30,167 bases of DNA from a virus, in IMG/VR virus record IMGVR_UViG_3300028883_000029, positions 1-30,167 of that record; one strand, written 5' to 3'. Positions 1-30,167 of the stretch are shown here, in pieces. A program made the translations under genes and the position numbers. The notes under the pieces were generated by a model that saw nothing but the letters and a program-made list of their open reading frames with translations, did no database searches and had not been told where the DNA came from. How positions within the stretch are numbered: position 1 is the stretch's first letter; each line of letters starts with the position of its first letter.

Positions 1-81
1 ACTTTCCTACTCAATGGAGTTGGACTCCAGATTGCCCAACAGAAGACACTTGTAATGGTGGTTGGGTAACTTTTGAAGTAT
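1..81. repeat. Terminal direct repeat marking a circular molecule (left copy)
   Basis: Bases 1-81 are identical to 30087-30167. The copy lies inside one open reading frame that stays in frame when the ends are joined, so the simplest reading is an assembly overlap of a circular genome of 30,086 bp rather than a biological long terminal repeat. Confidence 0.95.
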
Positions 82-1097
82 TCGGAATTGAAGAAGGAGT
101 GGGTTCTTCAACTTTCCCAATAGGAATTTCTGGGCCTTCGTGGGCTTATGATGGACAATTTGCAGGAGAGTTTGATAATAATAGTATAATTGATGTTGGA
201 AATAGTCAATTATTAACAAGTGGAAATGAAACAAATACATGGATTTTTTGGGTTAATATAAATTTAATAGAAAATGGAGATATGTTCTTACATCAATATT
301 CTACAAGTAATAATCAAAGAGCATTACAAATAAGACAATCAACAGTAGGCAATAAAATTGAAATGTTAATTTCAATGAATGGAACACAATACGATACAAT
401 ATATTCATCCAATAATTTTATGAACTTAAATAAATGGGAACAATATATAATAACATTTAATTTAGGAAATATAACTTTTTATAAAGATGGAAATTATGTT
501 AGTAATACAACAACAAGTCATATTGGAATATATAATACATCTGCAAATATGGGTATTGGACATGATGTTTTATTTTCAAATGGAAGAGGATTTCAAGGTT
601 CAATAGATGAAGTATTAATTTACAACAGAAGTTTAAGTGCAACAGAAGTTGCAGGTTTATATGCAAACTACACACTCCTCTCAACAGGACCACAAAGAAC
701 AGGAACACCAAGCACAGATGGACTTGTTTTGGACATAAATTTTGATGACTATTCTGTGGCAGATAACTCAGGTTCTGGAAATCATGGAACAAATACTAAT
801 GTAAGTTTTAGTGAGGTAGTTAATAATGATCAAACATTAGTTGAAGGAACTGATTTCAGTTGGACAACAGCAGGAGTATTAACTTTGTTAAACATAGATA
901 GAGAATATACAAGATTTGTATTCACAACAACTTATGATTCTGATTTTAGAAACTACTACGGCTTAGGACAGAACTGGTTTGTTACTTTCTTTGATGATTT
1001 TACTAATTGGATAACAGTAATAGTTTTAGTTACAGCAGCAGGAATAGTTTTATACATAATACTTAAAGAGTTCTCTGGACAGGAGAGTAATATATAA
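1..1097 (+). CDS. LamG-domain surface protein with C-terminal membrane anchor (3' part of circle-spanning gene)
   Basis: This is the C-terminal part of a 495-aa protein that starts at 29696; codons are in phase from base 3. Visible parts are a LamG/concanavalin-like jelly roll ending in the typical GSIDEVLIYNRSLS strand, a second partial LamG start (NSGSGNHG near 765-790), a small beta region (DFSWTTAGVLTL), then a C-terminal hydrophobic helix WITVIVLVTAAGIVLYIIL and the tail KEFSGQESNI. Many N-x-S/T sequons suggest a glycosylated exterior. The last 100 residues resemble the C-terminal half of the 169-aa protein at 7291. The GTG at 99 is internal and is not the start. Its role is probably glycan binding on a virion or cell surface (inferred). 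Confidence 0.9.
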   Translation, partial: FPTQWSWTPDCPTEDTCNGGWVTFEVFGIEEGVGSSTFPIGISGPSWAYDGQFAGEFDNNSIIDVGNSQLLTSGNETNTWIFWVNINLIENGDMFLHQYSTSNNQRALQIRQSTVGNKIEMLISMNGTQYDTIYSSNNFMNLNKWEQYIITFNLGNITFYKDGNYVSNTTTSHIGIYNTSANMGIGHDVLFSNGRGFQGSIDEVLIYNRSLSATEVAGLYANYTLLSTGPQRTGTPSTDGLVLDINFDDYSVADNSGSGNHGTNTNVSFSEVVNNDQTLVEGTDFSWTTAGVLTLLNIDREYTRFVFTTTYDSDFRNYYGLGQNWFVTFFDDFTNWITVIVLVTAAGIVLYIILKEFSGQESNI

Positions 1098-1764: not shown

Positions 1765-1971
1765 ATGATATGTGCAAAATGTGGAAAAGAGATACAAGAA
1801 CTAGACAACTACTTTGAAGTAAAACACATTGAAGAATTAGAACATAAAAATTCAACTTTTTATCATTATCAATGTTGGAAACATTTTCACAAAGATAAAT
1901 TTGAAGATGAATTTGTAAAAAAGATGAAAGGTTTAACTCCATTAATTAAAAGATTGGTACATCCACAATGA
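1765..1971 (+). CDS. 68-aa zinc-finger-like protein
   Basis: CAKCG near the N-terminus and HYQCWKHFH around residues 34-42 could form a single C-x2-C/H-x2-C zinc site of treble-clef or LIM-like type. The rest is charged and helical. It starts one base after the upstream stop and its TGA overlaps the next ATG (ATGA), showing translational coupling with the large LamG gene. Function unknown. Confidence 0.8.
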   Translation: MICAKCGKEIQELDNYFEVKHIEELEHKNSTFYHYQCWKHFHKDKFEDEFVKKMKGLTPLIKRLVHPQ

Positions 1972-5289: not shown

Positions 5290-5730
5290 ATGAAAATGAA
5301 TAAAAAAAATATACCATGGAACAAGGGATTGAAAGGAGTACAAGTTAGTTATAGAAAAGGTAAAACTTGGAAAGATATATGGGGAGAAGAAAAAGCAAAT
5401 AAAATGAAAATGAATTTAAGACATAAGAAATGGAAAGGTGTTCCACAATTAAATAAAGAAGGTTATTTAAGAATCAGGGATAGAAATACTGGAAAAGAAG
5501 TTTTATACCACCATCATATTTGGAGAAATTATCATAAAAAAGAAATACCAAAAGGATATTTAATACATCATATTGATAAAAATATATTAAATAATAATAT
5601 AAATAACTTACAACTTATGAGTTTTAAAGAACATACAAGAATGCATCATACTGGTTTAAAACATTCAAAAAAATCTAAAGAAAAAATGTCAATAAGTCAA
5701 AGAATAAGAAGAAGTGGAGGAAAGCTCTAA
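5290..5730 (+). CDS. HNH homing-type endonuclease with NUMOD3-like motifs
   Basis: A 146-aa free-standing endonuclease. The N-terminal part carries a NUMOD3-like DNA-binding motif (GKTWKDIWGEEKANKMK, residues 24-40). The HNH core spans about 58-120: the HHH around 74-76, IHHIDKNILNNNINNLQLM with H93/H94 and D96, then EHTRMHH at 114-120. The C-terminal HSKKSKEKMSISQ looks like a second NUMOD3 motif. It would nick or cut a specific site and spread by gene conversion. Its last residues (GGKL) and stop copy the end of the upstream structural gene, and its TAA overlaps the ATG of the next gene, so the insertion left both neighbours intact. Confidence 0.93.
   Translation: MKMNKKNIPWNKGLKGVQVSYRKGKTWKDIWGEEKANKMKMNLRHKKWKGVPQLNKEGYLRIRDRNTGKEVLYHHHIWRNYHKKEIPKGYLIHHIDKNILNNNINNLQLMSFKEHTRMHHTGLKHSKKSKEKMSISQRIRRSGGKL
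5716..5730 (+). repeat. Direct repeat at gene junction, copy 2 (GGAGGAAAGCTCTAA)
   Basis: Near-identical to 5270-5284 (one mismatch). Here it supplies the stop codon of the HNH gene and, via TAATG, the start of the next membrane-protein gene. Confidence 0.85.
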
Positions 5731-6997: not shown

Positions 6998-7282
6998 ATG
7001 AGATCTTTAATGAAAGATAAACGAGGTATGTCTTTAGGAGATATGTACCCAGCAGTATTAACTATTGTATTGATAGGTATTGTTTTAGGTATTGGACTTT
7101 ATGTTCTAGCTGAAACAGAAGAACAAATTGACAATAATGCTGCAGGAACTGCTATTAACACAACAATTTCTGGCTTAGGAGATTTTGCAGGTTGGATTGC
7201 TGTAATAGTTGTTGTAATTGCTGCTGCAATAGTTCTAGGAATTGTACTTCGTAGCTTCGGTCAAGGCGGAAGAGGAGTTTAG
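6998..7282 (+). CDS. 94-aa two-helix hydrophobic protein, candidate major capsid protein (paralogue 1)
   Basis: Two long hydrophobic helices are joined by a short polar loop: MYPAVLTIVLIGIVLGIG (about 15-36) and WIAVIVVVIAAAIVLGIV (about 65-86), ending RSFGQGGRGV. Small proteins with exactly two hydrophobic helices are the major capsid proteins of spindle-shaped archaeal viruses (fuselloviruses, PAV1/TPV1-like, halspiviruses; family knowledge). The dedicated promoter and strong SD support abundant expression. The N-terminal DKRGMS before the first helix also resembles a class III signal, so a pilin-like protein is the main alternative. The next gene is a paralogue. Confidence 0.85.
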   Translation: MRSLMKDKRGMSLGDMYPAVLTIVLIGIVLGIGLYVLAETEEQIDNNAAGTAINTTISGLGDFAGWIAVIVVVIAAAIVLGIVLRSFGQGGRGV

Positions 7283-7290
7283 TTACCTAA

Positions 7291-7800
7291 ATGGAACTCA
7301 ATGATTTATACCCTGCTGTTCTAACAATCGTTTTGATAGGATTAGTATTAGGAATTGGATTGTATGTAATGTCAGAAGTAAGAGAAGAAATTGCTACTGA
7401 ATATACTGGTTCAGATACTGCAGTTAATATAACTGCTACATCCCCAGCAAATACTACAACACTTACTGATTCAACATCAGATGATTACTATCTTAAAAGT
7501 ATAGACTCTGTAGTATATGAAAATGGTTCATCAACAACAATACCATCTTCTAATTATTCATTCACATCTACAGGAATAATTACTTGGGCAGATGAATTAG
7601 TTGCAGTTACTGATAACAGAGTAAATATTACTACAACATATATCTATGATGTAGCAAATAGTCCTGAAGAAGCAGTAAATGATTCTTTAGAAGGATTAGA
7701 TGATTTTGCTAGTTGGATTGCTGTAATAGTTGTAGTATTAGCAGCAGCAATAGTATTAGGTATTGTACTTCGTAGCTTTGGGCAAGGAAGAGCAGCATAA
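7291..7800 (+). CDS. 169-aa two-helix protein with inserted beta domain (paralogue 2)
   Basis: Both ends match the 94-aa neighbour: DLYPAVLTIVLIGLVLGIG near the start and FASWIAVIVVVLAAAIVLGI with LRSFGQG at the end. Between them about 85 residues of Thr/Ser-rich, sequon-bearing beta sequence are inserted (SNYSFTSTGIITW). That insert and the C-terminal helix are also similar to the end of the circle-spanning LamG protein. It may be a decorated minor capsid or envelope form of paralogue 1. It starts 8 bases after the upstream stop, in the same transcript. Confidence 0.85.
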   Translation: MELNDLYPAVLTIVLIGLVLGIGLYVMSEVREEIATEYTGSDTAVNITATSPANTTTLTDSTSDDYYLKSIDSVVYENGSSTTIPSSNYSFTSTGIITWADELVAVTDNRVNITTTYIYDVANSPEEAVNDSLEGLDDFASWIAVIVVVLAAAIVLGIVLRSFGQGRAA

Positions 7801-7854: not shown

Positions 7855-8175
7855 ATGGGAATTGGAAATTTTATAAAAGAAAAAGCAAAAAAATTGAAAG
7901 AGAATATCCAAGAAAGTATAGAATTTAATAAAAAATTAAAAGAGGAAGAGGAAAAAGCATTTAGAAAAGCTAGATTAGAAAATCTTGAAGAATTGGAAAG
8001 AGAAAAAGAAAAAGAAAGAAGAAAAGCACACTTAAAGAAATACAAAATGGAATTAAAAAAGCAAATTGAACCAAAAAAAGAAGAAAGAAATGATTTTGTT
8101 TCTAACTTTCAACCAAGTTCTGAATTTGCACCTACAATGAATTTTGATTTTCCACTGAAAGGAGGTAATATATAG
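7855..8175 (+). CDS. 106-aa charged coiled-coil protein
   Basis: Residues about 7-80 are almost entirely Lys/Glu/Leu helix with heptad-like spacing, followed by a polar tail (SSEFAPTMNFDFPL). There are no membrane segments. GAGAAGGAG lies just upstream of the ATG. It could be a scaffold or virion-internal protein given its place between capsid-like and fibre genes (inferred). Confidence 0.8.
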   Translation: MGIGNFIKEKAKKLKENIQESIEFNKKLKEEEEKAFRKARLENLEELEREKEKERRKAHLKKYKMELKKQIEPKKEERNDFVSNFQPSSEFAPTMNFDFPLKGGNI

Positions 8176-8177
8176 AA

Positions 8178-8312
8178 ATGGCAGTACACAATTCTCAAAC
8201 ATTAGCTAATGCCAAAAAGATGGCATCATACTTTAGGAAGAAAGGTTATAATTGTACTATATTTAAGAAAGGTAAGGGATATGGTATTAGTGTAACAAGA
8301 GGTAAGAAATAG
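8178..8312 (+). CDS. 44-aa basic protein
   Basis: The ATG is two bases after the previous stop and GGAGG lies about 13 bases upstream. The sequence has a helix (ANAKKMASYFRKKG) and a Lys/Gly-rich beta part (CTIFKKGKGYGISVTRGKK). The alpha-beta pattern and basic charge suggest nucleic-acid binding. It slightly resembles the 77-aa protein at 25787 in tone, not in clear sequence. Confidence 0.75.
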   Translation: MAVHNSQTLANAKKMASYFRKKGYNCTIFKKGKGYGISVTRGKK

Positions 8313-8315
8313 AAA

Positions 8316-8347
8316 GTTAAATAAATACTTCTTTCTTATATTTTTAA
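8316..8347 (+). promoter_or_regulatory. TATA box for leaderless fibre gene
   Basis: TAAATAAATA at about 8318-8327 lies some 25 bases before the ATG at 8348, and no Shine-Dalgarno is present. This spacing predicts transcription starting at or next to the ATG. Confidence 0.5.
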
Positions 8348-11116
8348 ATGGAATTCCCTAAAAAAATTGGTGTATTTTTAATTCTATTAATGATTGTTCC
8401 AGTTGTGGCTTCAATTGAAGTTGGAATTTCTGATGGTGAACCCCAAATTGGAATAGATCTTATTCCTGAAACTCCAACAAATTATTCTGCAGTTAATGTA
8501 AACAACTCAGAATATCTACAAGGATACACTCCAACAACTTTAAAGGATTGGATACAAGGATTATTTGATTCTATTTATTGCAAACTAACAGGTTGCACAA
8601 TGGAAGGAAATATTGATATGAACAAAAACAACATAACTAATGTTGCAGATTTATATTTTGATACAACTAATTGTGTAACAGATGGAATGAGTGAAGGTAG
8701 AGTTTGTTGGGACAATGATAAAAAAACATTAAGTATTGATTCTGGTTTAGGAACTGTTCTTCAAGTTGGGCAAGAACAAACAAGGGCAGTAAAAAATAAA
8801 GCAGGACAAACAATTTATGCAGGACAAATTACTTATATTTCTGGAAGTTCTGGAGAATTAGAAACAGTAATGTTAGCAGATTCAAGTAATGATACAAAGA
8901 TGCACAATTTAGCAATGGTTACACAACCAAGTTGTAATAATAATGCTTTATGTCAAGTAACAACTGTTGGATTAGTTCATGATATTGATACAAGCATGTG
9001 GATAGAAGGTGACCATTTATATCTTTCAGCAGATGGTTCTGGAAATGCAACAACTACTCAACCAAACTTCCCAAATTATAATATTCATTTGGGTGTTGTA
9101 ACAAGAAGTCATGCAAATACTGGTATGGTTGCTTTTTATCCAGAAATAGATTGGGGAGATGGAACTACAATTCATTCTTTAGGAATTTTAACAAATTTAA
9201 CTGTCAATGGTTGGATTAATGGAAAATTCAACTGGACATCTGGAGATGATTGGAATAGTTTTGATGGTTCAACATTATTATTTAATGATTCAAAACTTGC
9301 AACAACTTTCTACAATGCAACACAAGCAAGTGCAATTAGAGGAACAATAGATGGGGGAACTCTTGAAGATACTCAACACCCAGATGGAGATTATGATGGA
9401 GTTACTTTTAATTTTTCAGAAGAAGCAGGTGCAGTTGGTTTAGATTTAAGAGTTAATTTTACAAGTGTTGATGGTTTTAACAAAGGATATATCAGATATA
9501 AAACAAGTTCTCTTTCAGGAGATTATCCAGAAATTCAATTATGGAATTATGATGAAAGTGAATGGGAAGGTGGCTATGGTTATTTGTCTGAAACAGAGAA
9601 TTTCTTACAATATACAAATGATGTTTTAGATAGTTCAGAACATCTACAAGGGGGGATTATTCAAATGAGATTATATAAAGAAGGAAATGGAAATACAAAC
9701 AATCATTACTATGTTGATATGTTAGCGGTTGTTGATGGGTATGCAACACCAAGTGGTAATGTAGATTTAACTCCTTATTGGAGATATGATGATAATGATG
9801 AAAGTAGAAACTTTTTAACAGATGGGAATGTGACAGCAGACACTTATTTTGGAGATGGTTCTGAATTAATAGGAAATATGTCTTTTGATAAAACAAATAT
9901 TGCCTATACAAATAAATCAAATATTTTTACAAAAGAACAAGTTTTTAATGATAATTTTACAGGAAATTGGAGTGGATTGCCTTTTAGTTGGGTTTCTATA
10001 ATTCAAAAAGATATGTATGGAGCTATTAAAATGCCTGTAATAGAAGGACATTCAAGTTTAGGTGCTACAAGAACTTCTGTAGGATTAAGAGATGGAATTT
10101 ATGTTTTTGCTACAACAGGAATAAATCCTTCAATTATTTTAGCAAAAGATGATTTATTAGATTCAGCAGAAATAAGATATGATTTAACTTCAAGCCAATT
10201 AAATTTTACTTTAGCAGATAAATACAATTTTGATGATAGTATGAGTATAAATGGAAATTTAACTTTAGATAATGATGGATTGTTTATTGGAAGTTCTACT
10301 AGAATTTATAATGATGGAACAGATACAATTATCAATACAACTTCTGGAAGTTTATTTATTTATAATGATTCAGGTTGGGGAAATATTGAATATGGAAGTG
10401 CAGTAGAACACACTTATATAACACAAAAGACAAATAAAGAAGCATATGAATTAGTTGAATATGCAGAAGAAAATGGTGGAAATGATGGTAATTATTCAGC
10501 TTGGGAAGAATGTTATTCTACAAAAAATATAAAAGATTATTCAAGACCAGAGATTGAATATTATGAAAAAGAAGTATGTGAAATAGATATTATTATTGGA
10601 GGAGAACATATAAAAGAAAATTGTGAAAATAAGATTTTTGAAAATATAACTTATCCATATACAAAAGTTTCAGAAGGAATAAATGTTGGTTGTAAAAGTG
10701 TAATGATTCAAAAAGCATACGAATATTCTGAAAGAAATATAAAACATTTAGAAAATATAACTCAATTTGAAAATTCTGTTTTAGCAGAACATTACATAAC
10801 AAATACAACAAAAGAACCAGAAACATTAAATAAATTAGAAATTTTTTATGATGCTTTATCTACAAAAACATATTCACAAATGAAAGATATGATATTAACT
10901 TTAGATGGAAAGTTAAGTGATAATATTTTGTTTGATTATGAAAAGTCAGATTATGGAAGTTATAATTTAGAAGCTATTGGACATACAAATAGAGCAATGA
11001 ATGTTTTAATGTTATGGAAGATTTCAAAATTAGAAGATAGACAACAACAACAATTAGATTGTTGGGATTTATCAACTCAATCAGAAATAGTAAATTGTAT
11101 GAAGAATATAGATTAA
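8348..11116 (+). CDS. 922-aa secreted fibre-like / receptor-binding protein
   Basis: An N-terminal signal sequence (residues 5-22) is followed by a tail-fibre-type motif (EGNIDMNKNNITNV, 85-99) and a module at about 145-265 (VKNKAGQTIYAGQITYISG, LGVVTRSHANTGMV, with DTSMWIEGDHLYLS) typical of tailed-phage fibre and neck proteins. Next come beta-rich repeats with LTVNGWINGKFNW, DGNVTADTYFGDG and MSINGNLTLDNDGLF phrases, and a C-terminal helical part with QQQQL (about 890-910), as found in trimerising fibre tips. It probably binds host receptors. The signal peptide on a fibre is unusual for tailed phages and fits a membrane-budding particle. An adhesin is the alternative. Confidence 0.88.
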   Translation: MEFPKKIGVFLILLMIVPVVASIEVGISDGEPQIGIDLIPETPTNYSAVNVNNSEYLQGYTPTTLKDWIQGLFDSIYCKLTGCTMEGNIDMNKNNITNVADLYFDTTNCVTDGMSEGRVCWDNDKKTLSIDSGLGTVLQVGQEQTRAVKNKAGQTIYAGQITYISGSSGELETVMLADSSNDTKMHNLAMVTQPSCNNNALCQVTTVGLVHDIDTSMWIEGDHLYLSADGSGNATTTQPNFPNYNIHLGVVTRSHANTGMVAFYPEIDWGDGTTIHSLGILTNLTVNGWINGKFNWTSGDDWNSFDGSTLLFNDSKLATTFYNATQASAIRGTIDGGTLEDTQHPDGDYDGVTFNFSEEAGAVGLDLRVNFTSVDGFNKGYIRYKTSSLSGDYPEIQLWNYDESEWEGGYGYLSETENFLQYTNDVLDSSEHLQGGIIQMRLYKEGNGNTNNHYYVDMLAVVDGYATPSGNVDLTPYWRYDDNDESRNFLTDGNVTADTYFGDGSELIGNMSFDKTNIAYTNKSNIFTKEQVFNDNFTGNWSGLPFSWVSIIQKDMYGAIKMPVIEGHSSLGATRTSVGLRDGIYVFATTGINPSIILAKDDLLDSAEIRYDLTSSQLNFTLADKYNFDDSMSINGNLTLDNDGLFIGSSTRIYNDGTDTIINTTSGSLFIYNDSGWGNIEYGSAVEHTYITQKTNKEAYELVEYAEENGGNDGNYSAWEECYSTKNIKDYSRPEIEYYEKEVCEIDIIIGGEHIKENCENKIFENITYPYTKVSEGINVGCKSVMIQKAYEYSERNIKHLENITQFENSVLAEHYITNTTKEPETLNKLEIFYDALSTKTYSQMKDMILTLDGKLSDNILFDYEKSDYGSYNLEAIGHTNRAMNVLMLWKISKLEDRQQQQLDCWDLSTQSEIVNCMKNID

Positions 11117-11117
11117 A

Positions 11118-11243
11118 ATGGAATTAAAATCTTGGCAAATACAAATGATAATTCAAATGAAGAATCATGGATATAACATTTATGAAATAGAAGAAAAAAC
11201 AGGTGTTCCTTTAAAGGAAATAAAACAAATACTTAAACTTTAA
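11118..11243 (+). CDS. 41-aa helix-turn-helix microprotein
   Basis: The start is one base after the previous stop. GYNIYEIEEKTGVPLKEIKQIL reads as a homeodomain-like HTH when taken in two parts: GYNIYEIEEKTG (helix 2, turn) and PLKEIKQIL (recognition helix). Only the HTH unit is present, so it likely acts as a dimer or with a partner. It is the last gene of the late arm and could regulate it or the adjacent replication block. Confidence 0.72.
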   Translation: MELKSWQIQMIIQMKNHGYNIYEIEEKTGVPLKEIKQILKL

Positions 11244-11252
11244 AAAGTTTAA
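11233..11252. repeat. Inverted repeat TTAAACTTT-AA-AAAGTTTAA
   Basis: Nine-base perfect arms with a 2-base centre span the stop of the HTH gene. It could be an operator or a transcript-end element. Confidence 0.6.
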
Positions 11253-11260
11253 ATCACTTT

Positions 11261-11456
11261 CAATTTAGGGTGATGCATTACTCTACCCATAATGGAGTTC
11301 CCACATCACCCCTATAACTTCATGTTCCCTTAATCACCATCGAGGGAAAGGTGTTTTCATACACCCTCTTTTGCCATCCAAGGATTGCCACTATTCTTTC
11401 TACTCTCATGGGTAGTGGTTGGGTTTAATACCCCGTAAAATCCTTGGGTGTTTTTT
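11261..11456 (+). ncRNA. Candidate structured RNA in GC-richer intergenic island
   Basis: This stretch is clearly richer in G+C than its surroundings and holds many perfect stems: GGGTGATG (11268-11275) with CATCACCC (11304-11311), enclosing a 5-bp hairpin 11281-11285/11293-11297; TTCCCT (11325-11330) with AGGGAA (11343-11348); GGTGT/ACACC (11350-11354/11361-11365); and a 12-bp stem 11375-11386/11439-11450 enclosing CCACTATTC/GGGTAGTGG (11388-11396/11410-11418, two or more G-U pairs) and GGGT/ACCC (11421-11424/11430-11433), which gives a three-way junction. Six Ts follow the last stem. I recognise no known RNA family. A complex terminator or a replication origin are alternatives. Confidence 0.6.
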
Positions 11457-11479
11457 GTTACTACAATAAAGTTTACAAG

Positions 11480-11512
11480 AAATTATATAAACTAATTATT
11501 CTTAAACATCTC
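11480..11512 (+). promoter_or_regulatory. TATA box for leaderless replication operon
   Basis: AATTATATAA (11481-11490) is about 27 bases ahead of the ATG at 11513, with no Shine-Dalgarno between them, the spacing of a leaderless archaeal transcript. Confidence 0.55.
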
Positions 11513-11713
11513 ATGGACGGATGGAAGTATTGGGAAGGCAAGAAGGTATTTATTATTTCTAAAAATAGTTCACACCCTTATACTGGGGAAGTTATTGAAG
11601 TTGATGATTCTAAAGAACCATTAATTTGGATTACTATTATTGATAAATATGGATCAAGAGTTCAATTAGTTCATTCTGAAATATTAACAATTAAGGAGGA
11701 TGCTAAAAGATGA
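11513..11713 (+). CDS. 66-aa small beta-barrel (SH3/Sm-like) protein
   Basis: The frame is open from 11444, but that upstream part lies in the structured RNA. The ATG at 11513 is placed correctly for the TATA box and gives MDGWKYWEGKKVFII. Alternating strands (KKVFIISKN, TGEVIEVDD, IWITIIDKYG, VQLVHSEILTI) suggest a five-stranded SH3- or Sm-like barrel. The stop overlaps the nuclease ATG (ATGA). It may be a nucleic-acid-binding accessory; function unproven. Confidence 0.78.
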   Translation: MDGWKYWEGKKVFIISKNSSHPYTGEVIEVDDSKEPLIWITIIDKYGSRVQLVHSEILTIKEDAKR

Positions 11714-13137
11714 TTGGAGCATTTCATAAAGAAACTAAAAAGTATGTAACATCCTATATGATTCTTAAAGATATAGAATGGATTGGTAGGGAGAAAGAAA
11801 AATTTTATTCCCCAACACATGAGATAATAAATTGGGAAGAATTAGGTGATGAAAAAGAAATACCAGTTATATTTGTTAAAGAATCTATTGATGGAAAAAG
11901 ACCACATTGGAGAATCCATCATGATAAAGCTAAATCCTCTTCAATAAATGAATCACCAGAGCATAAAGAAATAAAAGAAACAATCTATTATGATTTAGTT
12001 TTAAATAATTCTAAATTAAAAATTGGAAATAATTTATATTCAATAGATGAATTGAGTGTAAAAAATATCTCTATTGAAGGAAGAATATGTGAAAAGAAAG
12101 ATTCAAAAATAGCAGATGTATTAATTGAATTTAAAGAATACAATCCTATGATTGGCAATGGAATTGCTATTGAAATTCAATTATCAAGACAGACAGAATT
12201 ATTTGGGTTAAAAAGAAGTTATGATAGATCAGTTTATGGATATTCATGTGCATGGATTGATAAAAAGATATTTTATGAAGATTATTTAATAAAAAAGGTA
12301 ATTGAAGTTGATCCTTATTTTGAATGTATTGAAAAATATAAAGAAGAAGTAAAAGATACAAATATCGAATTAGTAAATAATATTGGTTTTTCTATAAATG
12401 AAAAAATAAAAGAAATGTTCCAAATAAAAAATCAGATAGATTTACAAATTAAATTATTAAAAAATACTAAAGAAGAATTATCTAATGAACTAATTAATTT
12501 ATTTGATAAGGTTAAAGGAGAATTTAAAGATGAATATTTTGAAGAATTAAAAAATTCTATATTACCAGAAATAAATAATCAAAAAGAAAAAATATTAAAA
12601 GAATCAAAAGAGCAAGTAAATAAAATAATCAATGAAAAATTGGATTCTGAAAAAATAAAGGAAGAACTTATTATATCAGGAAATTCAATGGTTGAAGATT
12701 TATCTATTGAATTAATAAATAATTTAAAACAAGATATAGAATATGAATTTAAAAATACTTATAAAGAAAAAATTGATGAATTAGTTAAAGAAATAAAAAA
12801 AGATGAAAATTTTCAGAATATAGAAGAACTTAGAAAAAAATTAGAAAAACAACTATTTGAATCTTGGAGATCTAATCATTTAAAATTTGAATCATATTCT
12901 AATATGGTAAATGATTTTTTTACTGAAGATTTAGATAAATGTGCTTATTGGAATAAAACATTAAATGATGCTATTACCAATCCTAAACATATACTTAGAG
13001 AAAATTATAAACTTGAGGATTTGAAAATTATGAGAACTAAGGCAGAAATATTATTGAATGATAAAAAAATAATATCTAAATCAAGAAAGGAGGATTTTAA
13101 AAAAGAGAATGGTGAAACACAAACAAATATATGTTAA
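11710..13137 (+). CDS. CoiA-like PD-(D/E)xK nuclease with long coiled coil, 475 aa
   Basis: Residues 65-190 match the competence-protein CoiA pattern: SPEHKEIK helix (82-89), IADVL (D136), IAIEIQLS (E155-x-Q157), then R169 and Y171 in a helix and the strand YSCAWID. D136, E155 and Q157 are the expected metal-site residues. Residues about 230-400 form a long Lys/Glu coiled coil, and the remainder is helical with MRTKAEILL near the end. CoiA proteins act on DNA during uptake or recombination. Here, directly upstream of a helicase-like ATPase, it may process replication or recombination intermediates. The 3' end overlaps the next gene by 29 bp. Confidence 0.8.
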   Translation: MIGAFHKETKKYVTSYMILKDIEWIGREKEKFYSPTHEIINWEELGDEKEIPVIFVKESIDGKRPHWRIHHDKAKSSSINESPEHKEIKETIYYDLVLNNSKLKIGNNLYSIDELSVKNISIEGRICEKKDSKIADVLIEFKEYNPMIGNGIAIEIQLSRQTELFGLKRSYDRSVYGYSCAWIDKKIFYEDYLIKKVIEVDPYFECIEKYKEEVKDTNIELVNNIGFSINEKIKEMFQIKNQIDLQIKLLKNTKEELSNELINLFDKVKGEFKDEYFEELKNSILPEINNQKEKILKESKEQVNKIINEKLDSEKIKEELIISGNSMVEDLSIELINNLKQDIEYEFKNTYKEKIDELVKEIKKDENFQNIEELRKKLEKQLFESWRSNHLKFESYSNMVNDFFTEDLDKCAYWNKTLNDAITNPKHILRENYKLEDLKIMRTKAEILLNDKKIISKSRKEDFKKENGETQTNIC

Positions 13138-16170: not shown

Positions 16171-16210
16171 TCCAGGAAGTTTGATTTCCACCTTCTTCCT
16201 GGATTTATAT
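16171..16210 (+). terminator. Nine-bp hairpin after the ssDNA-binding-like gene
   Basis: TCCAGGAAG (16171-16179) pairs perfectly with CTTCCTGGA (16195-16203), followed by TTTATATT. The stem is unusually GC-rich for this region and sits directly after the stop, so it may end or stabilise the mRNA. Confidence 0.6.
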
Positions 16211-16214
16211 TAAA

Positions 16215-16367
16215 ATGAAACAAAAAGAATACAGAAAAAAAATTGAAGAACTAACTAAAAAGTATTTTGATGAAGCTGGTTTCGCAGCACAAAGATATGT
16301 AAATGCTTTAAGTGAATTAAATTGGAAATACTATGTAGAGGAAAATGTAGGAGAGGAGTTAAAATGA
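16215..16367 (+). CDS. 50-aa charged helical protein
   Basis: The protein is a single charged helix-rich sequence (KKIEELTKKYFDEAGFAAQ, then VNALSELNWKYYVEENVGEE). It has no signal peptide or membrane segment. Its TGA overlaps the next ATG, and it heads a chain of seven coupled small genes. Function unknown. Confidence 0.7.
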   Translation: MKQKEYRKKIEELTKKYFDEAGFAAQRYVNALSELNWKYYVEENVGEELK

Positions 16368-16672
16368 AACCAACAGAACAAGCAAAGAAATTAATGAATG
16401 GATGTGGAGAGATAGAAATCCAAAGATATTCAAAGGAAATAGGTTTTGTAGACGAGGAATGTAATAAATTAGAATTATGTCCATCTTGCAAAAAAGCAAT
16501 TAAAGAACTAAAGATTGCATTTGAAAATGAGTTGGAGAAATGGGAAGAGATATGGAATAGAAATTTATTAGAAAAACCTAAAAAAGAATACAATGAGGGA
16601 CAAATGGAATTTATTAAAAAACAAATAGAAGAATTAAAACAAGCAATTAAAATATTGGAGAATGGGAAATGA
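16364..16672 (+). CDS. 102-aa protein with Cys cluster and coiled coil
   Basis: The start is set at the ATGA overlap (16364); the frame is open further upstream, but that part overlaps the previous gene. C14, C34 and the CPSC pair (about 39-42) could bind zinc, and residues 45-100 are charged helix (ELEKWEEIWNRNLLE, KKQIEELKQAIKILE). No family is recognised. Confidence 0.78.
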   Translation: MKPTEQAKKLMNGCGEIEIQRYSKEIGFVDEECNKLELCPSCKKAIKELKIAFENELEKWEEIWNRNLLEKPKKEYNEGQMEFIKKQIEELKQAIKILENGK

Positions 16673-16869
16673 AAAAACTACCAAAAAACTTAGACAACCT
16701 TGTATCTAAAATTCACAAAAGTATGTGGGAAATAGGAGAAATAAAACCAATCAAACTAAAAGTTTATGACATAGTTGTAAACATTGCAGAGAAAAGAGGT
16801 TACGAAGTTTCACAACACCGAGAATATGTTGATACTTACAAATTTATTTTGAAGGAGGAAAAGAAATGA
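16669..16869 (+). CDS. 66-aa small protein, unknown
   Basis: ATGA overlaps lie at both ends. The mixed alpha/beta sequence (LDNLVSKIHKSMWEIG, KLKVYDIVVNIAEKRG, YVDTYKFILKEEKK) is soluble and basic. No motif is recognised. Confidence 0.72.
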   Translation: MKKLPKNLDNLVSKIHKSMWEIGEIKPIKLKVYDIVVNIAEKRGYEVSQHREYVDTYKFILKEEKK

Positions 16870-17165
16870 AAATAGAATATAAAATAATAATTGGAATATT
16901 AATTGTATTAGGTTTAATTAGTATTTTTGTAACTCCTGCTTTTAAAGAAGAACCTAAATGGAAAACAAATGGAACAATATATAATATAACTTATTATGAT
17001 ACTGGAGAAAGAAGTGTTATTTGGGATTATACTTATGACGATAAAGAATGGAAATATTTTAAAATTCTTAATGCAAATTGTAAAGAAGTAATTTGTCCTT
17101 GTGCTAAAGATGGATGTCTTGCTTATTGTATGGAATGTGAGGAATTATTGGAGGAAAGGAAATGA
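16866..17165 (+). CDS. 99-aa membrane-anchored Cys-rich external protein
   Basis: A single N-terminal hydrophobic helix (residues 7-25) anchors a polar domain with sequons (NGTIYNITYY) and a C-terminal cysteine cluster with seven Cys in about 25 residues (CKEVICPCAKDGCLAYCMEC). The cluster may form disulfides outside the cell or bind metal. It is coupled on both sides by ATGA. Confidence 0.78.
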   Translation: MKIEYKIIIGILIVLGLISIFVTPAFKEEPKWKTNGTIYNITYYDTGERSVIWDYTYDDKEWKYFKILNANCKEVICPCAKDGCLAYCMECEELLEERK

Positions 17166-18426: not shown

Positions 18427-18566
18427 ATGCAACAATATTAGAAGCATTTTGGTTTATATGTATTGGTAGTTTAATTGGTTTTTTATTAGCATATATTATT
18501 TGGATGGATTGGTATATTAGAAATGGATATAATACTTTGAAATTAAATAAAACACTTAAAAAATGA
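18423..18566 (+). CDS. 47-aa single-helix membrane protein
   Basis: Residues 8-30 form one hydrophobic helix rich in Trp and Phe (FWFICIGSLIGFLLAYII), followed by a basic tail ending KTLKK, which is encoded by the recurrent AAAACACTTAAAAA element. ATGA overlaps lie at both ends. Confidence 0.68.
   Translation: MNATILEAFWFICIGSLIGFLLAYIIWMDWYIRNGYNTLKLNKTLKK
18549..18562 (+). repeat. Gene-start element AAAACACTTAAAAA, copy 3
   Basis: Identical to 17987-18000. Here it also codes the end of the upstream microprotein and abuts the methyltransferase ATG. Confidence 0.7.
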
Positions 18567-19180
18567 AAATACTTAATTTATATGCAGGAATTGGAGGAAA
18601 TAGAAAACTATGGGGAGATGAACATGAAGTAACTGCTGTTGAAATTAATCCAGAGATTGCTAAAATATATCAAGATTTCTTTCCAAAAGATAAAGTAATT
18701 GTTGCAGATGCACATGAATATCTTTTAGAACATTTCCAAGAATTTGATTTTATTTGGAGTTCACCACCTTGTCCAAGTCATTCAGTATTATGTTTCTGCC
18801 AAAAGAAGAAGAAGTTTCCAGATATGAAACTTTATGAAGAAATAATATTTTTGAAAGCATGGTTTAAAGGAAAATGGGTAGTAGAGAATGTTAAACCATA
18901 TTATGAACCATTATTAAAACCACAGAAGGTTGGAAGACATTGTGTTTGGAGTAATTTTGAAATAACAGATATTGATGTTGATTATCAAATAGGAACTTTC
19001 AATAGATTAGCTTCTAAAGAAGCATTAGAAAAAGCAAGAATTAGAAGGGCACAAATACCAGACCTAATTGATTTTCATGGATTAAAAGATTTTAAATTAA
19101 AAAATAAAAGACAGGTTTTAAGAAATTGTGTTTATCCTAAAGTGGGATTACACATATTAAATTGTTCACAATTCCCCTAA
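18563..19180 (+). CDS. DNA (cytosine-5) methyltransferase, short viral form, 205 aa
   Basis: Motif I NLYAGIGG (5-12) binds S-adenosylmethionine, AVEINPEIA gives the acidic residue of motif II, and SSPPCPSHS (66-74) holds the catalytic Cys70. VENVKPYY (108-114) is motif VI. At 205 residues it is shorter than restriction-linked C5 enzymes (usually above 300) and lacks an obvious target-recognition domain, as in some phage solitary methyltransferases. No restriction partner is recognised. It may protect the element from host nucleases or mark its own DNA. Confidence 0.88.
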   Translation: MKILNLYAGIGGNRKLWGDEHEVTAVEINPEIAKIYQDFFPKDKVIVADAHEYLLEHFQEFDFIWSSPPCPSHSVLCFCQKKKKFPDMKLYEEIIFLKAWFKGKWVVENVKPYYEPLLKPQKVGRHCVWSNFEITDIDVDYQIGTFNRLASKEALEKARIRRAQIPDLIDFHGLKDFKLKNKRQVLRNCVYPKVGLHILNCSQFP

Positions 19181-21694: not shown

Positions 21695-22069
21695 ATGAAA
21701 ACGACCCATTTTCAGCCAATTACGAACAAACCAAATCCATGGAAAAGAATGACAATCATATTAGGAATAATATTAATGATTCAATTAGTTTATGATTTAC
21801 AAACAGATAAAACAAATGATATGGTTGAAGAACAAATCAATTTAGTAGATCAATTAATTGAAAATCAGATTGTATTTGTTTATAGTTCAGGTTGTTCTGC
21901 TTGTCATAAGCAAATAGAAATATTTGGAGAAGATTGGGATAGATATTTTCAAACTGGTTTAACAATAGATTGTGGTTCTCAATCAAGTGTATATTGTCAA
22001 AACATAACAGCAACACCCTCGTGGAGATTATTAGATGGAACTATAATTGGAGTTGGTGTTATACAATGA
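21695..22069 (+). CDS. Membrane-anchored thioredoxin-like protein, 124 aa
   Basis: A hydrophobic anchor (residues 18-34) is followed by an extracellular thioredoxin-like domain: strand IVFVYSS, active-site C67-S-A-C70 on a helix, and ATPSW with the likely cis-proline P108 before the last strands (LLDGTIIGVGV). Extra cysteines C93 and C101 may form a structural disulfide. It probably forms or exchanges disulfides outside the membrane, perhaps for the Cys-rich external proteins of this element. It starts directly after AAGGAGAAATAA. Confidence 0.85.
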   Translation: MKTTHFQPITNKPNPWKRMTIILGIILMIQLVYDLQTDKTNDMVEEQINLVDQLIENQIVFVYSSGCSACHKQIEIFGEDWDRYFQTGLTIDCGSQSSVYCQNITATPSWRLLDGTIIGVGVIQ

Positions 22070-22908: not shown

Positions 22909-23808
22909 CTAGGTATTTTCCCTTTTATGTTCTTTAATCCAATTATAAAGGGTCATTTCTGTAACTAAAAACCCTTCAGTCCATTGTTTCATTGTAACAA
23001 ATGGCATTTTCTCGTGTAATTCTAAGAACAATTCCTTCTTATATTTCTTTTTATCTGCTTCTTCTAGCTGTACTATGTGGTCATCACGAGTATCATCAAA
23101 TTTCCTTTTCTTATACTTATTAATCTCTTTCTTTAATTGTTCTGGCATATTAGCTGTTAAGAAGTGATAAGATTGACTAAAAACTCCGCTAAAGTCAGAA
23201 GAAACTACATCATAATCCCATTCTCTTTTTCCTTTTAAATATAATTTCTTCTTAGAACTTGGTCCATAGAAATCAAAGTAACCTCTCTCAAATTCTCCAC
23301 CAAATTTAACATTAATTAAACAATGACTTCTTGCTAGTGCATAGAACTTAGGTAATTCAAAGAAGCTAGGAAGTATTAATATTAATATTTGGTTTAGCTG
23401 TCTACATTTTCTAAAATATCTTTTTAATCTAACTGCTAACTCTTTCATTCCATGTGTAGTTAAGTCATCTCCTTCATCAAGTTGTTGTATTTTGTATGCA
23501 GGTTTTTCTATTGAATTAATTGTTAATTCTTTTGAATTAAAATAAACATCTGAAGAATTAAATTCATTTTCTGTATTATGTAATTCATTTATTCTGTAAG
23601 TTAGATAAGAACCTATCTGTGTAGCAAGTGTTGACTTCCCATTTCCAACAGAATCATTACCCGTTATTATAATTAGAAAGTGCATATCATTTTTAATCTT
23701 TTTAGCATAAACATCTAAGTTTTTTGCTAATGTTCCATCTATATAAGCACCAGGCGTTCTTTGATCTGGTAAACTTCCCATAGGAAAAAACTCTTCTGCA
23801 TATTTCAT
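22909..23808 (-). CDS. P-loop ATPase with C-terminal helix-turn-helix, 299 aa
   Basis: Walker A GNDSVGNGKST (50-60) and a Walker B-like strand YKIQQLDEG (105-113) are followed by ILILILPSFFELPKFYAL (141-158) as a sensor-like strand and helix. Residues about 262-296 read as a helix-turn-helix (VTMKQWTEGF, then TEMTLYNWIKEH). There is no membrane helix. The layout suits a DNA-packaging, partition or HerA/Zot-like ATPase, but no subfamily is certain. It is the last gene of the minus-strand operon, one base after the 144-aa gene, so it probably works with those proteins. Confidence 0.85.
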   Translation of the reverse strand: MKYAEEFFPMGSLPDQRTPGAYIDGTLAKNLDVYAKKIKNDMHFLIIITGNDSVGNGKSTLATQIGSYLTYRINELHNTENEFNSSDVYFNSKELTINSIEKPAYKIQQLDEGDDLTTHGMKELAVRLKRYFRKCRQLNQILILILPSFFELPKFYALARSHCLINVKFGGEFERGYFDFYGPSSKKKLYLKGKREWDYDVVSSDFSGVFSQSYHFLTANMPEQLKKEINKYKKRKFDDTRDDHIVQLEEADKKKYKKELFLELHEKMPFVTMKQWTEGFLVTEMTLYNWIKEHKRENT

Positions 23809-26038: not shown

Positions 26039-28837
26039 ATGGCAAAAATAGGTGAACAAGTTGGATCAGTTTCAGCAGGTGAAAGAAGAACTGGAAGAAT
26101 TGGACAACAAATTGGTGCAAAGAAAACAAGAGCTGAGATAGTTAGAGAAGAACAACAAAGAAGAATTGCTAAAGAAGAACAGCAAAGGAAACAACAAGAA
26201 CTTCAAGCATCATTATCAAAAGTTTCTAATGCAACAAACATTAATCAATATAAAAAATTATTAAATGAAGTTCCAGATTGGCAGAAACCTTATATTCAAA
26301 AAACAATTAATGAATTAGAAACTAAACAACAATCTAGTATTTCTAAAATAAAATCTGAAATTAATCAAGCTAAACAATTAGCAGAAAGATATAAACAAGA
26401 AGCAGAAAGATTTAATCGTGAAGGAAGAGATGAAAGGGCAGAATCAACAGAAACATCTTATGCTATAACTCAAAAAAGAATAGAAGGTTTATCCTCAGGA
26501 TTAAATAAATTACAAAAGGGAGAATTAGTTTCTGCTAGTTCTGTTATACAATATTCACAAGCATTAAGTTCTGGAGTTGAACAAAGATTACAAGGAAAAG
26601 AAAAATTAATAAGAACTTTAGCAAAAGATGTTAGTTTAAAAGAAGCACAACAAATAGTTGCTACTGGAAAAATAACAAAAGAACAAATGAAAGATATAGC
26701 TCCAACAACTTTAACATCTATTGGATTAAAACCTTCAAAGGTTGAAACTGGTGGATATTATGTAGATCCAAAAACAGGACTAGGAATGAGTTCAATGCAA
26801 GATTTATCTAAAGAAGGTTATGTTAAAGTTGGAACTCCAGGAGAAGATTTTTCAATAGTTCAACAAAGAACTGCACAAGTAAAACCTTCTTATGTAACTC
26901 CAACTCCTTTTGGAGATTATATTGATATTACAAAATCAGGGGGATTCGAAGCTGCTACTAAAGAAATTAAAACTAAAGAATTTGAAACAGGACAAAGTAT
27001 AAAACAAGATCCAATGATTGGGCAATCAGTTATTTCAGAAGCTCCTTCTGAATTTTCATTATGGAAAAGAGAAACAGCAAAAGAAGGTTATGTTTCTGGA
27101 ACACTTAATTGGTTAGGTTCAGCAACTTCAAGAAAAACAACTCAACTTCAAAATTGGCAAAAAGGATATTTTGAAAGTAAAGGTTGGGATTATGAACCTT
27201 ATCAAGAACAAGCTACTGCAAACCTCGCAGGTTTCACAGCAAGAACAGCTCCTTATTTTACACCAGGAGGAGCTTATCTTTTAATTGGAGAAGGAGTTGA
27301 AGGATTAATGTCTGAAGGTGGAAAAGAAAGAATAGGAAAAAGATTTGATACTATTGAAAGTTGGGATTTACCTGGTGGAAAAGTAACAAGTAGTGTTTTA
27401 TCTATTAGTCCAGAGGTTGCACAAATAGGTTTAGGATTTGGTGCTATTCCAACTAGATACAAAGTTGTTGAAACTGGAGGAGTAAAACCATTTAGAACTC
27501 AAGAATTTAATATTGGTGGAAAAAATACTTTTGCAAGAGTAACTCAAACAACTTCAACAAAATATGTAAAACAAAATTGGTTTAATGATATAAAAACTGA
27601 ATTTGGTTTTCAACCAAAGAAATATACATTTCAGAAAGGACAAGTTTATGTGGAGAAACCAACAGAGTTTACAAAGATTGGAGAACCTTACCTATTGGAA
27701 ACAAGTAAGGTTAGTAAAGCTCCAGATAATTTTTTATCAGAGGGAGAATTAAGAATATTTTTGAAAGATGCCAAGTTTACTCCAACTAAAAAATATACTT
27801 ATGTAAAACCAGTTGCAGGAAAACAAATTATATTAGGTGAAGAAACAATTAGTGTTGGAGGAACTTATAGTTTTGAGTTAGGAAAAGCACAACCTAAGAA
27901 ATACACAATTGATTTAGACCGGATATTTAGAACACAAAAGTTTGATCTATCAGTTTCAAAAGTTAAGGGATTGCCTCAAATAATTCCTGAAAGACAAGTT
28001 TTATTAGGAGATTCATTTTCTCAAACAATTAATTTAAGAACTGGAAGAGGGTTGGGAAAAATTGGTAAAGAGAAAACTACTATCTTAAAAATTCTACCAG
28101 AAGAACAAAGTTTTACTTCTTTTAAAGGAAGAGGAACACCAAGTTCTCAAGCATACTTCCAAAAATTGTATCAGCCACAAATACAATTACCAAAACCAAC
28201 AATAAAACCAACAAAAACTTCACAAACTATAATTAAAACTCCAACTTCAAGTAAACCTTCAACTTTTGTAGCAGTTACAACAGGACAATTTACTACTCCT
28301 CCAATCTCCCAACAAACAAGTGGGATGTTTCCAATTTTAGATACAAGAGTAGATTCTTCCCTTCAAGTTAAAAGTTATTCTGATATTCAATTAAAATCAT
28401 TAGTTGAACAAAACATTAAATTAGATTCTGCAATAAAAATTAAATCAGATTCAATGTTAAACTTAAAAATTAAACAAAAACAACAACAAAAATCTCCACA
28501 AGTCCAAAGATTAAAAACAAAACAAATATTAGAACCAATGATTAGACCAATGAGATTTACTCCTACAAGAAAAGCTCCACCAAGAAGAACTCCTAAAAAG
28601 AAACCTCCTTTTGGACTAATGGGTTTTGACTTTCCTTCATTTTCATTACCAACTAGAAAATTAACTACCTCTAAACCAAAAAAGAAACCTATAAAAAGAC
28701 AAGCATCCTTAGTAGCATTGGGAGAAAACATCTTTGCAAAAGAAAAAGGTAAAGGTGAGTTCAGTGGTTTAACAATTCGTCCTATCATTATCGATGGAAA
28801 AAAGAAAAAGAAGAGGAGGACTAGCGAATGGATTTAG
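26039..28837 (+). CDS. 932-aa large virion-like protein
   Basis: An N-terminal basic and Gln/Glu-rich coiled coil (about 30-230) is followed by a middle beta-rich part with a weakly hydrophobic patch (about 395-425, TAPYFTPGGAYLLIGEGVEG), further beta segments, and from about 690 a Pro/Thr/Lys-rich, disordered tail with GLMGFDFPSFSLP and a final basic run (KKKKKRR). There is no signal peptide. Long proteins with coiled coil and disordered basic ends near capsid genes often span the particle interior or bind the genome. TTTATAAATC lies about 10 bases before the ATG. The stop overlaps the next gene by 10 bp. Confidence 0.83.
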   Translation: MAKIGEQVGSVSAGERRTGRIGQQIGAKKTRAEIVREEQQRRIAKEEQQRKQQELQASLSKVSNATNINQYKKLLNEVPDWQKPYIQKTINELETKQQSSISKIKSEINQAKQLAERYKQEAERFNREGRDERAESTETSYAITQKRIEGLSSGLNKLQKGELVSASSVIQYSQALSSGVEQRLQGKEKLIRTLAKDVSLKEAQQIVATGKITKEQMKDIAPTTLTSIGLKPSKVETGGYYVDPKTGLGMSSMQDLSKEGYVKVGTPGEDFSIVQQRTAQVKPSYVTPTPFGDYIDITKSGGFEAATKEIKTKEFETGQSIKQDPMIGQSVISEAPSEFSLWKRETAKEGYVSGTLNWLGSATSRKTTQLQNWQKGYFESKGWDYEPYQEQATANLAGFTARTAPYFTPGGAYLLIGEGVEGLMSEGGKERIGKRFDTIESWDLPGGKVTSSVLSISPEVAQIGLGFGAIPTRYKVVETGGVKPFRTQEFNIGGKNTFARVTQTTSTKYVKQNWFNDIKTEFGFQPKKYTFQKGQVYVEKPTEFTKIGEPYLLETSKVSKAPDNFLSEGELRIFLKDAKFTPTKKYTYVKPVAGKQIILGEETISVGGTYSFELGKAQPKKYTIDLDRIFRTQKFDLSVSKVKGLPQIIPERQVLLGDSFSQTINLRTGRGLGKIGKEKTTILKILPEEQSFTSFKGRGTPSSQAYFQKLYQPQIQLPKPTIKPTKTSQTIIKTPTSSKPSTFVAVTTGQFTTPPISQQTSGMFPILDTRVDSSLQVKSYSDIQLKSLVEQNIKLDSAIKIKSDSMLNLKIKQKQQQKSPQVQRLKTKQILEPMIRPMRFTPTRKAPPRRTPKKKPPFGLMGFDFPSFSLPTRKLTTSKPKKKPIKRQASLVALGENIFAKEKGKGEFSGLTIRPIIIDGKKKKKRRTSEWI

Positions 28838-29706
28838 ATAATATTGTACCAACTGTTATTACTTTGGTAGTTATTGGTTTTGCAATAGCAATTAGTATTT
28901 TAGTTGCTGTTGGAGTTCAAGATGGAACACTACAAATATCTTCTGAAAATACTACTGAATCATTTGTTATGTTAGCTAATGGATCAACTCAACAACTAAC
29001 AACTGTTGAAGAAGGAGTAACTTCCTCCTCAGCAACAGCCCACAACAACTCATGGCTTGAATTTGATGGGGTTAATGATGTTGTTAAAATTAGTGATTCT
29101 ATAAATGCAAATTTATCTAATGGTTATACAATTTCTTTATGGATAAATGCTAAAAGTAGTAATATTACTGGGGGAGATGGAATTTATTTACATTTTTTAA
29201 ATAAAACAGGTTCAAGACCAGATTATTTAATTGGTATTAGAGATGTTTCAGGGGTTGCACAAATTAAATTTAGAAGTATAATAAATGGATCTGGATGTGA
29301 TGATACTGCAACATCAAAAGGATTTGCAAAAAATAATAGAGAATGGATTTATGTAACTGGGGTTTTTAATGGAACTACAAATAAATTATATATTAATAGT
29401 TTATTAAACGATACAGATAATTTACCAGATTATTGTACTCAATTAATAAGTGAAACAATTTCTGATAATTTAAATATAGGAATTGGTGGAAGATACACAG
29501 AAGCATCTTATGTTGAAGGAAGTATTGAAGAAGTAAGAATATATAATAAATCACTTACAGATTCAGAAATCTCAGAAATCTACAACTCAGGAAGAATAGC
29601 AAATAGTTCTCTCCCTTCAACAGGCTTAGTTGCTTGGTATTCTTTCAATGAAGCAACTGGAAATGTTGTCTACGACAAGTCGGGGAATAATAATCATGGC
29701 TCTTAA
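28828..29706 (+). CDS. 292-aa LamG protein with N-terminal helix, apparently truncated
   Basis: An N-terminal hydrophobic helix (VPTVITLVVIGFAIAISIL, about 7-27) resembles those of the capsid-like pair. A LamG domain (residues about 70-245, starting WLEFDGVNDVVKI and ending GSIEEVRIYNKSLTDSEI) follows, then GLVAWYSFN and a stop just after GNNNHG, the very start of another LamG unit. In the next gene the same motif continues into a beta domain and membrane helix, so this gene looks cut at that point. GGAGG lies before the start. Confidence 0.85.
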   Translation: MDLDNIVPTVITLVVIGFAIAISILVAVGVQDGTLQISSENTTESFVMLANGSTQQLTTVEEGVTSSSATAHNNSWLEFDGVNDVVKISDSINANLSNGYTISLWINAKSSNITGGDGIYLHFLNKTGSRPDYLIGIRDVSGVAQIKFRSIINGSGCDDTATSKGFAKNNREWIYVTGVFNGTTNKLYINSLLNDTDNLPDYCTQLISETISDNLNIGIGGRYTEASYVEGSIEEVRIYNKSLTDSEISEIYNSGRIANSSLPSTGLVAWYSFNEATGNVVYDKSGNNNHGS

Positions 29707-30167
29707 AAACTACATATTATTAGGATTAGTATTCTTACTAGCAATAGCTCCAATAATGGCAAAAGATTTATCTTTAAATGAAATACAAGATATAAAAGAC
29801 AAACCAGATTTAATTACATTAGATGCTAAACAAGTTGAAATAACAGATAAACTTGATGCAAGTTATATTATTAAAGAAGATGGAGTTTACTTTAAAGATT
29901 TAAAACAAACAGACCCAATAGTTTATATTGATAAGTATGAATTGGATAAGAATAAAAAAAGAATTTATCATGTAGATAGTAAAAGAGATTTTATTGAAAA
30001 TGAATCAGTTAGTTTAACCTTCTGGTATTCTACTCAACCAGATTACATTGCTCATTACACTCACTCAGGAAAGTTTGATAGATATTACTTTCCTACTCAA
30101 TGGAGTTGGACTCCAGATTGCCCAACAGAAGACACTTGTAATGGTGGTTGGGTAACTTTTGAAGTAT
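29696..30167 (+). CDS. LamG surface protein, N-terminal part (continues at base 1)
   Basis: The ATG at 29696 overlaps the end of the previous gene. A signal peptide (MALKNYILLGLVFLLAIAP onward, ending IMAKD) is followed by a soluble domain. The frame runs to the end of the window and continues in phase at base 3, giving 495 residues ending at 1097 on the closed circle. Confidence 0.9.
   Translation, partial: MALKNYILLGLVFLLAIAPIMAKDLSLNEIQDIKDKPDLITLDAKQVEITDKLDASYIIKEDGVYFKDLKQTDPIVYIDKYELDKNKKRIYHVDSKRDFIENESVSLTFWYSTQPDYIAHYTHSGKFDRYYFPTQWSWTPDCPTEDTCNGGWVTFEV
30087..30167. repeat. Terminal direct repeat marking a circular molecule (right copy)
   Basis: Exact copy of bases 1-81, lying in the same reading frame of the same gene. 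It supports circularity with a unit length of 30,086 bp. Confidence 0.95.

Follow-up and report, generated by a model that had tools for sequence, protein, structure and literature searches.

The stretch analysed here, IMG/VR virus record IMGVR_UViG_3300028883_000029 (30,167 nucleotides (nt), hereafter the window), belongs to an undescribed virus of archaeal type and contains two overlapping genes, A and B. Each encodes one LamG domain, and each carries at one end a segment resembling one half of the two-helix, putative capsid proteins of the same virus, namely helix 1 at the N-terminus of A, and a beta segment with helix 2 at the C-terminus of B. This complementary likeness is clear in two viruses and weak in a third. 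The arrangement suggests that the coat protein is divided into two pieces, on which the virus displays binding domains that can be exchanged. We consider it probable that A and B together represent a two-cistron LamG cassette lying between the halves of a capsid-protein frame, where it would display its binding domains. The style of the encoded proteins suggests that the host may be an archaeon.

Genes A and B and their capsid-like ends

The first and last 81 base pairs (bp) of the window (1-81 and 30087-30167) are identical and form a direct terminal repeat. The record is therefore circular, and the open reading frames (ORFs) at its two ends constitute one gene, gene B, with 495 amino acids (aa) in total (Table 1). 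The C-terminus of gene A (...GLVAWYSFNEATGNVVYDKSGNNNHGS) is directly followed by the stop codon. A preliminary description of the window had placed the end of the 292-aa ORF at an NHG element and the start of the next gene in the same CATGG. Both were confirmed: the 3' end of gene A reads CAT GGC TCT TAA, and gene B starts inside it with ATG GCT CTT AAA, which gives an overlap of 11 nt. The joined translation of gene B likewise agreed with that description, showing an own LamG domain and then GLVLDINFDDYSVADNSGSGNHG, which precedes the beta segment and the C-terminal helix. A GGGGA motif 9 nt upstream of the gene B ATG uses the rare codons TCG (1.2% of serine codons) and GGG (6.8% of glycine codons), so that expression of A and B is probably coupled.

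Scans of viral records, some of them aimed at further A genes and at fused versions, returned the A/B pair in only two relatives, IMGVR_UViG_3300031111_000005 (L001, 36.9 kb) and IMGVR_UViG_3300033145_001111 (L006, 26 kb). The overlap geometry ATGG-NNNN-TAA is found in all three viruses (ATGGCTCTTAA, ATGGAGAATAA and ATGGAATTTAA), though the downstream sequence differs. In L001 an endonuclease gene lies between A and B, exactly at the junction. Its NUMOD3 motifs (58.3 bits in two stretches) and DUF559/Vsr-like nuclease domain (DUF559 33.9 bits) predict a free-standing NUMOD3 homing endonuclease. A possible start of this gene is the ATG of CATGG itself, and the GGGGA motif is present upstream of it. 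Alignment with blastn showed the window and L001 to be collinear up to window position 29699 and again from 29703, with a 751-bp insertion in L001; the A/B junction is an insertion point for a homing endonuclease. Programmed readthrough, which the preliminary description had raised, and frameshifting from A into B are excluded in L001, where a further gene and approximately 750 bp separate the two, and the frame of gene A continues for only 24 codons past its stop. Scans of cellular genome contigs with gene B alignments, based on short peptide patterns that reach only close relatives, detected no relative. Among named phages no matches were found for gene B, the 169-aa protein described below, a 299-aa protein (22909-23808) or the 958-aa adhesin.

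The two-helix proteins of the window, of 94 and 169 aa, are paralogues and were aligned with each other and with homologs from a further record (L003); the 169-aa protein has a beta segment in the turn between its helices. A comparable pair, of about 98 and 181 aa, is present in the L006 record. A hidden Markov model of the gene B C-terminus matched the 169-aa protein with E = 7.6e-9. We then compared the first 48 residues of A and the last 60 residues of B with the two-helix proteins of each virus. The N-terminus of A matched the proteins of its own virus with z values of 9.2 in the window and 10.9 in L006. For the C-terminus of B the own-virus z values were 16.9 in the window, 22-24 in L006 and 8.9 in L001 (against a 76-aa two-helix protein). 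Cross-virus values were mostly between 0 and 3; the exception was L003, whose two-helix proteins are closely related to those of the window. When all ORFs were ranked, the two-helix pair took ranks 1 and 2 for the ends of both A and B in the window (56 ORFs; for helix 1 of A, the 169-aa protein ranked first and the 94-aa protein second) and in L006, and the two-helix proteins of L001 again came out on top, weakly for A (score 39) and with a score of 54 for B. The own-virus match extends past the helices into the beta segment, and in B of L006 it reaches flanking polar residues (NNFTAGVDNVSSKIPT compared with ANFTRGVDNVSAKIPT in the 181-aa protein of L006). The capsid-like character that had been assigned to both ends from the window alone is thus borne out, since the own two-helix proteins are the best matches among all ORFs. 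Neither polypeptide contains a two-helix hairpin by itself, as A has only the first helix, and the second helix in B is accompanied by a signal peptide. DNA identity between the A/B termini and the capsid-like genes is only 0.43-0.62, which rules out recent gene conversion between them. As for homology to known capsid proteins, PHROG gave no match.

Comparison of the window with L001 revealed a mosaic. Nucleotide identity is 0.37-0.43 in the first 75 columns of gene A, 0.85 at the start of the A LamG region, approximately 0.4-0.7 in the LamG cores, 0.87-1.00 in the first 100 codons of gene B, 0.96 around the gene B motif and approximately 0.4-0.5 in the region of its C-terminal helix. The conserved block extends from the LamG of A to just past the LamG of B and is flanked by capsid-type halves that are specific to each virus. 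Similarity within the gene pair is highest in a stretch of about 300 bp of gene B that begins at the endonuclease site: over codons 1-100 of B 82 of 87 codons are identical, compared with 68 identical codons out of 108 over the 265 columns that follow (Fisher p 1e-7). Co-conversion during homing would fit this stretch (PMC2988022; PMC10448857), the window virus now being without an endonuclease there. Nuclease genes have been found at exchange boundaries of phages (PMC10448857), and the L001 endonuclease similarly borders the tract of about 300 bp with 94% identical codons; unlike those cases, this is one small tract and not an island of more than 10 kb, and the window virus lacks an endonuclease at this site. 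A 958-aa adhesin gene (window 1968-4844; L001 5285-8287) displays the same mosaic: DNA identity is 88.7% over the 488 bp that open the gene and encode its signal peptide and N-terminal domain, and collapses across its LamG domain. Another tract of 665 bp (window 16207-16871) is 89.5% identical to L001's record (L002 18976-19593); the genomes are otherwise dissimilar, and the tract was recently shared.

LamG domains and their C-terminal element

Both genes exceed the curated Laminin_G_3 cut-off (PF13385, 27.6 bits), with Pfam matches of 67.8 bits for A and 71 bits for B, as do A and B of L001 and L006. The AlphaFold models of gene A and of L001 gene B point to pentraxin/PAPP-A-like folds for both domains. 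Residues 72-292 of the gene A model aligned to PAPP-A with Z 18.7 (197 residues, root-mean-square deviation 3.1), to 4dqa with Z 17.3 and to PTX3 and CRP with Z 15-16; SAP was aligned as well. The gene B model aligned over residues ~180-407 to the same PAPP-A/pentraxin domains, through the NHG element. As in the Laminin_G_3 jelly roll of the pentraxin/PAPP-A type, the domains of A and B would, judged from models of modest confidence, be complete or nearly so, and the models align over the domain. A differs in stopping before the last strand: its last residue corresponds to PTX3 372 and CRP 193, about 10-13 residues or one short strand before the domain end, whereas the gene B model reaches that end (PTX3 381, CRP 206). 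All 15 non-A LamG units in our alignment extend beyond the end point of gene A.

An element of the type GLV..YSFNE..SGNGNHG follows the LamG core at near-constant spacing across 18 aligned LamG units, and in the gene A model its region contains a strand (267-272). Single-core stand-alone phage proteins (L009, L015, L024, L026 and L034) have the same element, with the protein ending 10-20 residues later. Since the element follows the core in these proteins and the models align through it to complete domains, it is an intrinsic part near the C-terminal end of each LamG, present in two copies because there are two LamGs. The NHG motif does not, on these grounds, mark an insertion or duplication boundary, as had been supposed. 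The position of the element after the core, shared by many phage LamGs, differs from that of a weak match before the core in 4qvs and 5hon. A circular permutation special to the A/B pair was rejected, as phage LamGs commonly have the core ahead of the motif and the models match the fold in the usual pentraxin order. A search of the gene A motif against PDB by sequence alone gave nothing useful.

The preliminary description had also read boundaries from the base-level similarity of AATCATGG at 29692-29699 and 780-787. The positions are correct, yet the similarity there is limited to these 8 bases and carries no such meaning. The octamer encodes N-H-G and occurs 5 times in the window compared with 1.6 +/- 1.1 expected, and the local alignment of the two regions scores no better than shuffled sequence, with 377 of 1000 shuffles being as good. 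At the protein level the gene A motif scored 49 with the gene B motif, the 8th of 16 non-A motifs, while several unrelated phage LamG motifs scored 50-66.

In a tree of LamG units A and B form two clades, each with full bootstrap support, joined at 89/82. The separate clades imply that the genes were already separate before the three viruses diverged.

Possible function and origin of the pair

In the arrangement we favour, the proteins encoded by the conserved, overlapping genes A and B would both be anchored in the membrane at the virion surface. A joins a capsid-type helix 1 to a pentraxin-like LamG lectin domain. B begins with a signal peptide and an N-terminal domain, continues with a LamG and ends in a capsid-type beta segment with helix 2. 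Jointly they would correspond to a single capsid-protein hairpin that is interrupted where its turn faces outwards, the binding domains occupying the turn. The predicted topology places the N-terminus of A inside and its LamG outside; in B the signal peptide would be cleaved, leaving the LamG outside and the C-terminus inside. The terminal helices would probably hold both proteins in or beside the capsid/membrane lattice, and the LamGs outside might bind host surface glycans. The LamG block probably behaves as a bicistronic cassette that moves onto different capsid frames; this is suggested by the sharing of the block, from the A LamG to the B LamG, between viruses whose terminal helices instead resemble their own capsid-like proteins.

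The idea of LamGs in place of the turn draws on an analogy with the capsid proteins of archaeal spindle-shaped viruses, which have two hydrophobic helices and an exposed turn (PMC10866085, PMC10848311). The 94-aa and 169-aa proteins also have two hydrophobic helices, the helix of A resembling the first and the beta segment and helix of B the second. In contrast to those capsid proteins, A and B divide the two helices between two polypeptides, with LamGs in between, and neither the phmmer search of the 94-aa protein against PDB nor PHROG gave a sequence match to a known capsid protein.

More tentatively, A and B could act as one split capsid protein. Helix 1 of A would then pair with helix 2 of B at a lattice position, the missing LamG strand of A would perhaps be supplied in trans by B, two lectins would be shown from the hairpin turn, and cassettes would be exchanged between viruses with different capsid proteins. 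If so, cassette exchange would bring new receptor specificity onto a fixed frame. How receptor-binding domains are attached is poorly known for archaeal viruses with tiny helical-hairpin coat proteins, of the spindle type and others, and an exchangeable lectin cassette placed between the halves of a capsid protein that is interrupted at the exposed turn would be a simple, testable answer. The match of helices to the own virus is an inexpensive marker by which other genomes can be searched for proteins of this kind.

Several observations weigh against the arrangement we favour. The comparison covers three viruses, a small sample, and in L001 the own-virus match of the gene A N-terminus is weak (z 3.4). 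The models are of modest confidence, with a mean predicted local distance difference test score (pLDDT) of 65 for gene A and 53.5 for L001 gene B. The two-helix proteins are capsid proteins by inference, and a phmmer search of the 94-aa protein against PDB gave nothing significant. The records are metagenomic only, and the association of A with B and their place in virions are presumed. Convergence of short hydrophobic helices is possible, for which the ranking over all ORFs provides a partial control. Finally, whole-record Laminin_G_3 searches of the found records revealed no fused helix-LamG-beta-helix gene.

Two accounts concern the origin of the pair, and both are compatible with the functional explanation given above. 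It is quite conceivable, if short of an even chance, that two independent fusions took place, in which a LamG was added to a capsid-type N-terminal helix to give A, a separate secreted adhesin gained a capsid-type C-terminal half to give B, and adjacency resulted from the clustering of structural genes. The signal peptide and N-terminal domain of B, the separate and well supported clades of the A and B LamGs and the gene overlaps common in the window genome all agree with such fusions. They would, however, need coincidence to explain why the halves complement each other, why the genes are adjacent and why A lacks the last strand.

That a single ancestral helix-LamG-beta-helix gene was split by a signal-peptide/LamG cassette inserted or duplicated at NHG, as the preliminary description had proposed, appears rather doubtful. 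Helix 1 in A and beta-helix 2 of the same protein type in B would be expected from such a split, as would a LamG in A that is one strand short of the fold and a B that has this strand, if the frame once passed NHG; the branch joining the A and B LamGs also has moderate support. Against it, both relatives have two separate genes and no undivided gene was present in any found record, the two-gene state is older than the divergence of the three viruses, and the motif is an ordinary LamG element in which A and B are no closer to each other than to unrelated LamGs. What stands of that proposal is a composite capsid frame, which is likely; the insertion scar is not supported, an undivided ancestor is conjectural, and within the three viruses the observations named at the time as refuting it were largely made. 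Between a frame that was once single and separate assembly, the missing last strand of A leans slightly towards the single frame.

It is improbable that a homing endonuclease split one gene and subsequently disappeared from the window virus. Such a split has a precedent (PMC2988022), the L001 gene resembling the endonucleases of the Aeh1 nrdA/mobE and T4 topoisomerase/mobA split genes in its place at the junction of adjacent coding regions, with a possible start at the same ATG and next to the most similar stretch of the pair. Unlike in those systems, two of the three viruses have the two-gene state without the endonuclease: the window and L006 lack a contiguous A-B homolog, and as L006 is the more divergent, it is more parsimonious to assume that the endonuclease entered a junction that was already there. 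B, with its own signal peptide and domain, is also not merely a second half of A. Equally unlikely are ordinary tandem adhesin genes with convergent membrane anchors, since, although the hydrophobic helices are short and of low complexity and the L001 gene A match is weak, in two genomes the two-helix proteins take the first two places among all ORFs, and the match extends to polar flanks and the beta segment.

Feature coordinates and further genes of the window

Table 1. Positions of genes A and B, their parts and the related genes in the window, L001 and L006.
Record	Feature	Position	Strand	Remark
Window	Gene A	28828..29706	+	ORF of 292 aa; capsid-like N-terminal helix and one LamG unit
Window	Gene A helix 1	28828..28914	+	resembles helix 1 of the window's own two-helix proteins
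Window	Gene A LamG unit, residues 72-292	29041..29703	+	without the last strand of the fold
Window	GLVAWYSFNE..NNNHG element, gene A	29623..29700	+	intrinsic C-terminal part of the LamG
Window	GGGGA, putative Shine-Dalgarno-like motif	29682..29686	+	inside gene A, upstream of the gene B start
Window	A stop/B start overlap, ATGG-NNNN-TAA, 11 nt	29696..29706	+	
Window	Gene B, 5' part	29696..30167	+	signal peptide and N-terminal domain; resumes at 82
Window	Gene B, 3' part	82..1097	+	LamG, beta segment and C-terminal helix; joined translation
Window	GLVLDINFDD..GSGNHG element, gene B	720..788	+	counterpart of the element ending gene A
Window	Gene B beta segment and helix 2	795..1094	+	resembles the second half of the 169-aa two-helix protein
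Window	94-aa two-helix protein	6998..7282	+	putative major capsid protein without beta domain
Window	169-aa helix-beta-helix protein	7291..7800	+	putative major capsid protein; reference for both halves
L001	Gene A	9866-10774		302 aa, 46% identical to window gene A
L001	Endonuclease gene	10764-11522		between A and B, exactly at the junction; NUMOD3 and DUF559/Vsr-like
L001	Gene B	11512-12948		478 aa, 60% identical to window gene B
L006	Gene A	8149-9042		homolog
L006	Gene B	9032-10486		homolog; overlaps A by the same 11 nt, no endonuclease

Further genes were noted in the window. An HNH_3 endonuclease-like ORF (5290-5730; 40.9 bits) lies among structural genes and is a candidate homing nuclease. 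A membrane-anchored protein (21695-22069) contains CSACHK, a thioredoxin-like CxxC motif, and shows 75% DNA identity to L001 14427-14638. A DNA methyltransferase-like gene with an SPPCP motif (18563-19180) is shared with L006 (1117-1821) at 71.6% DNA identity.

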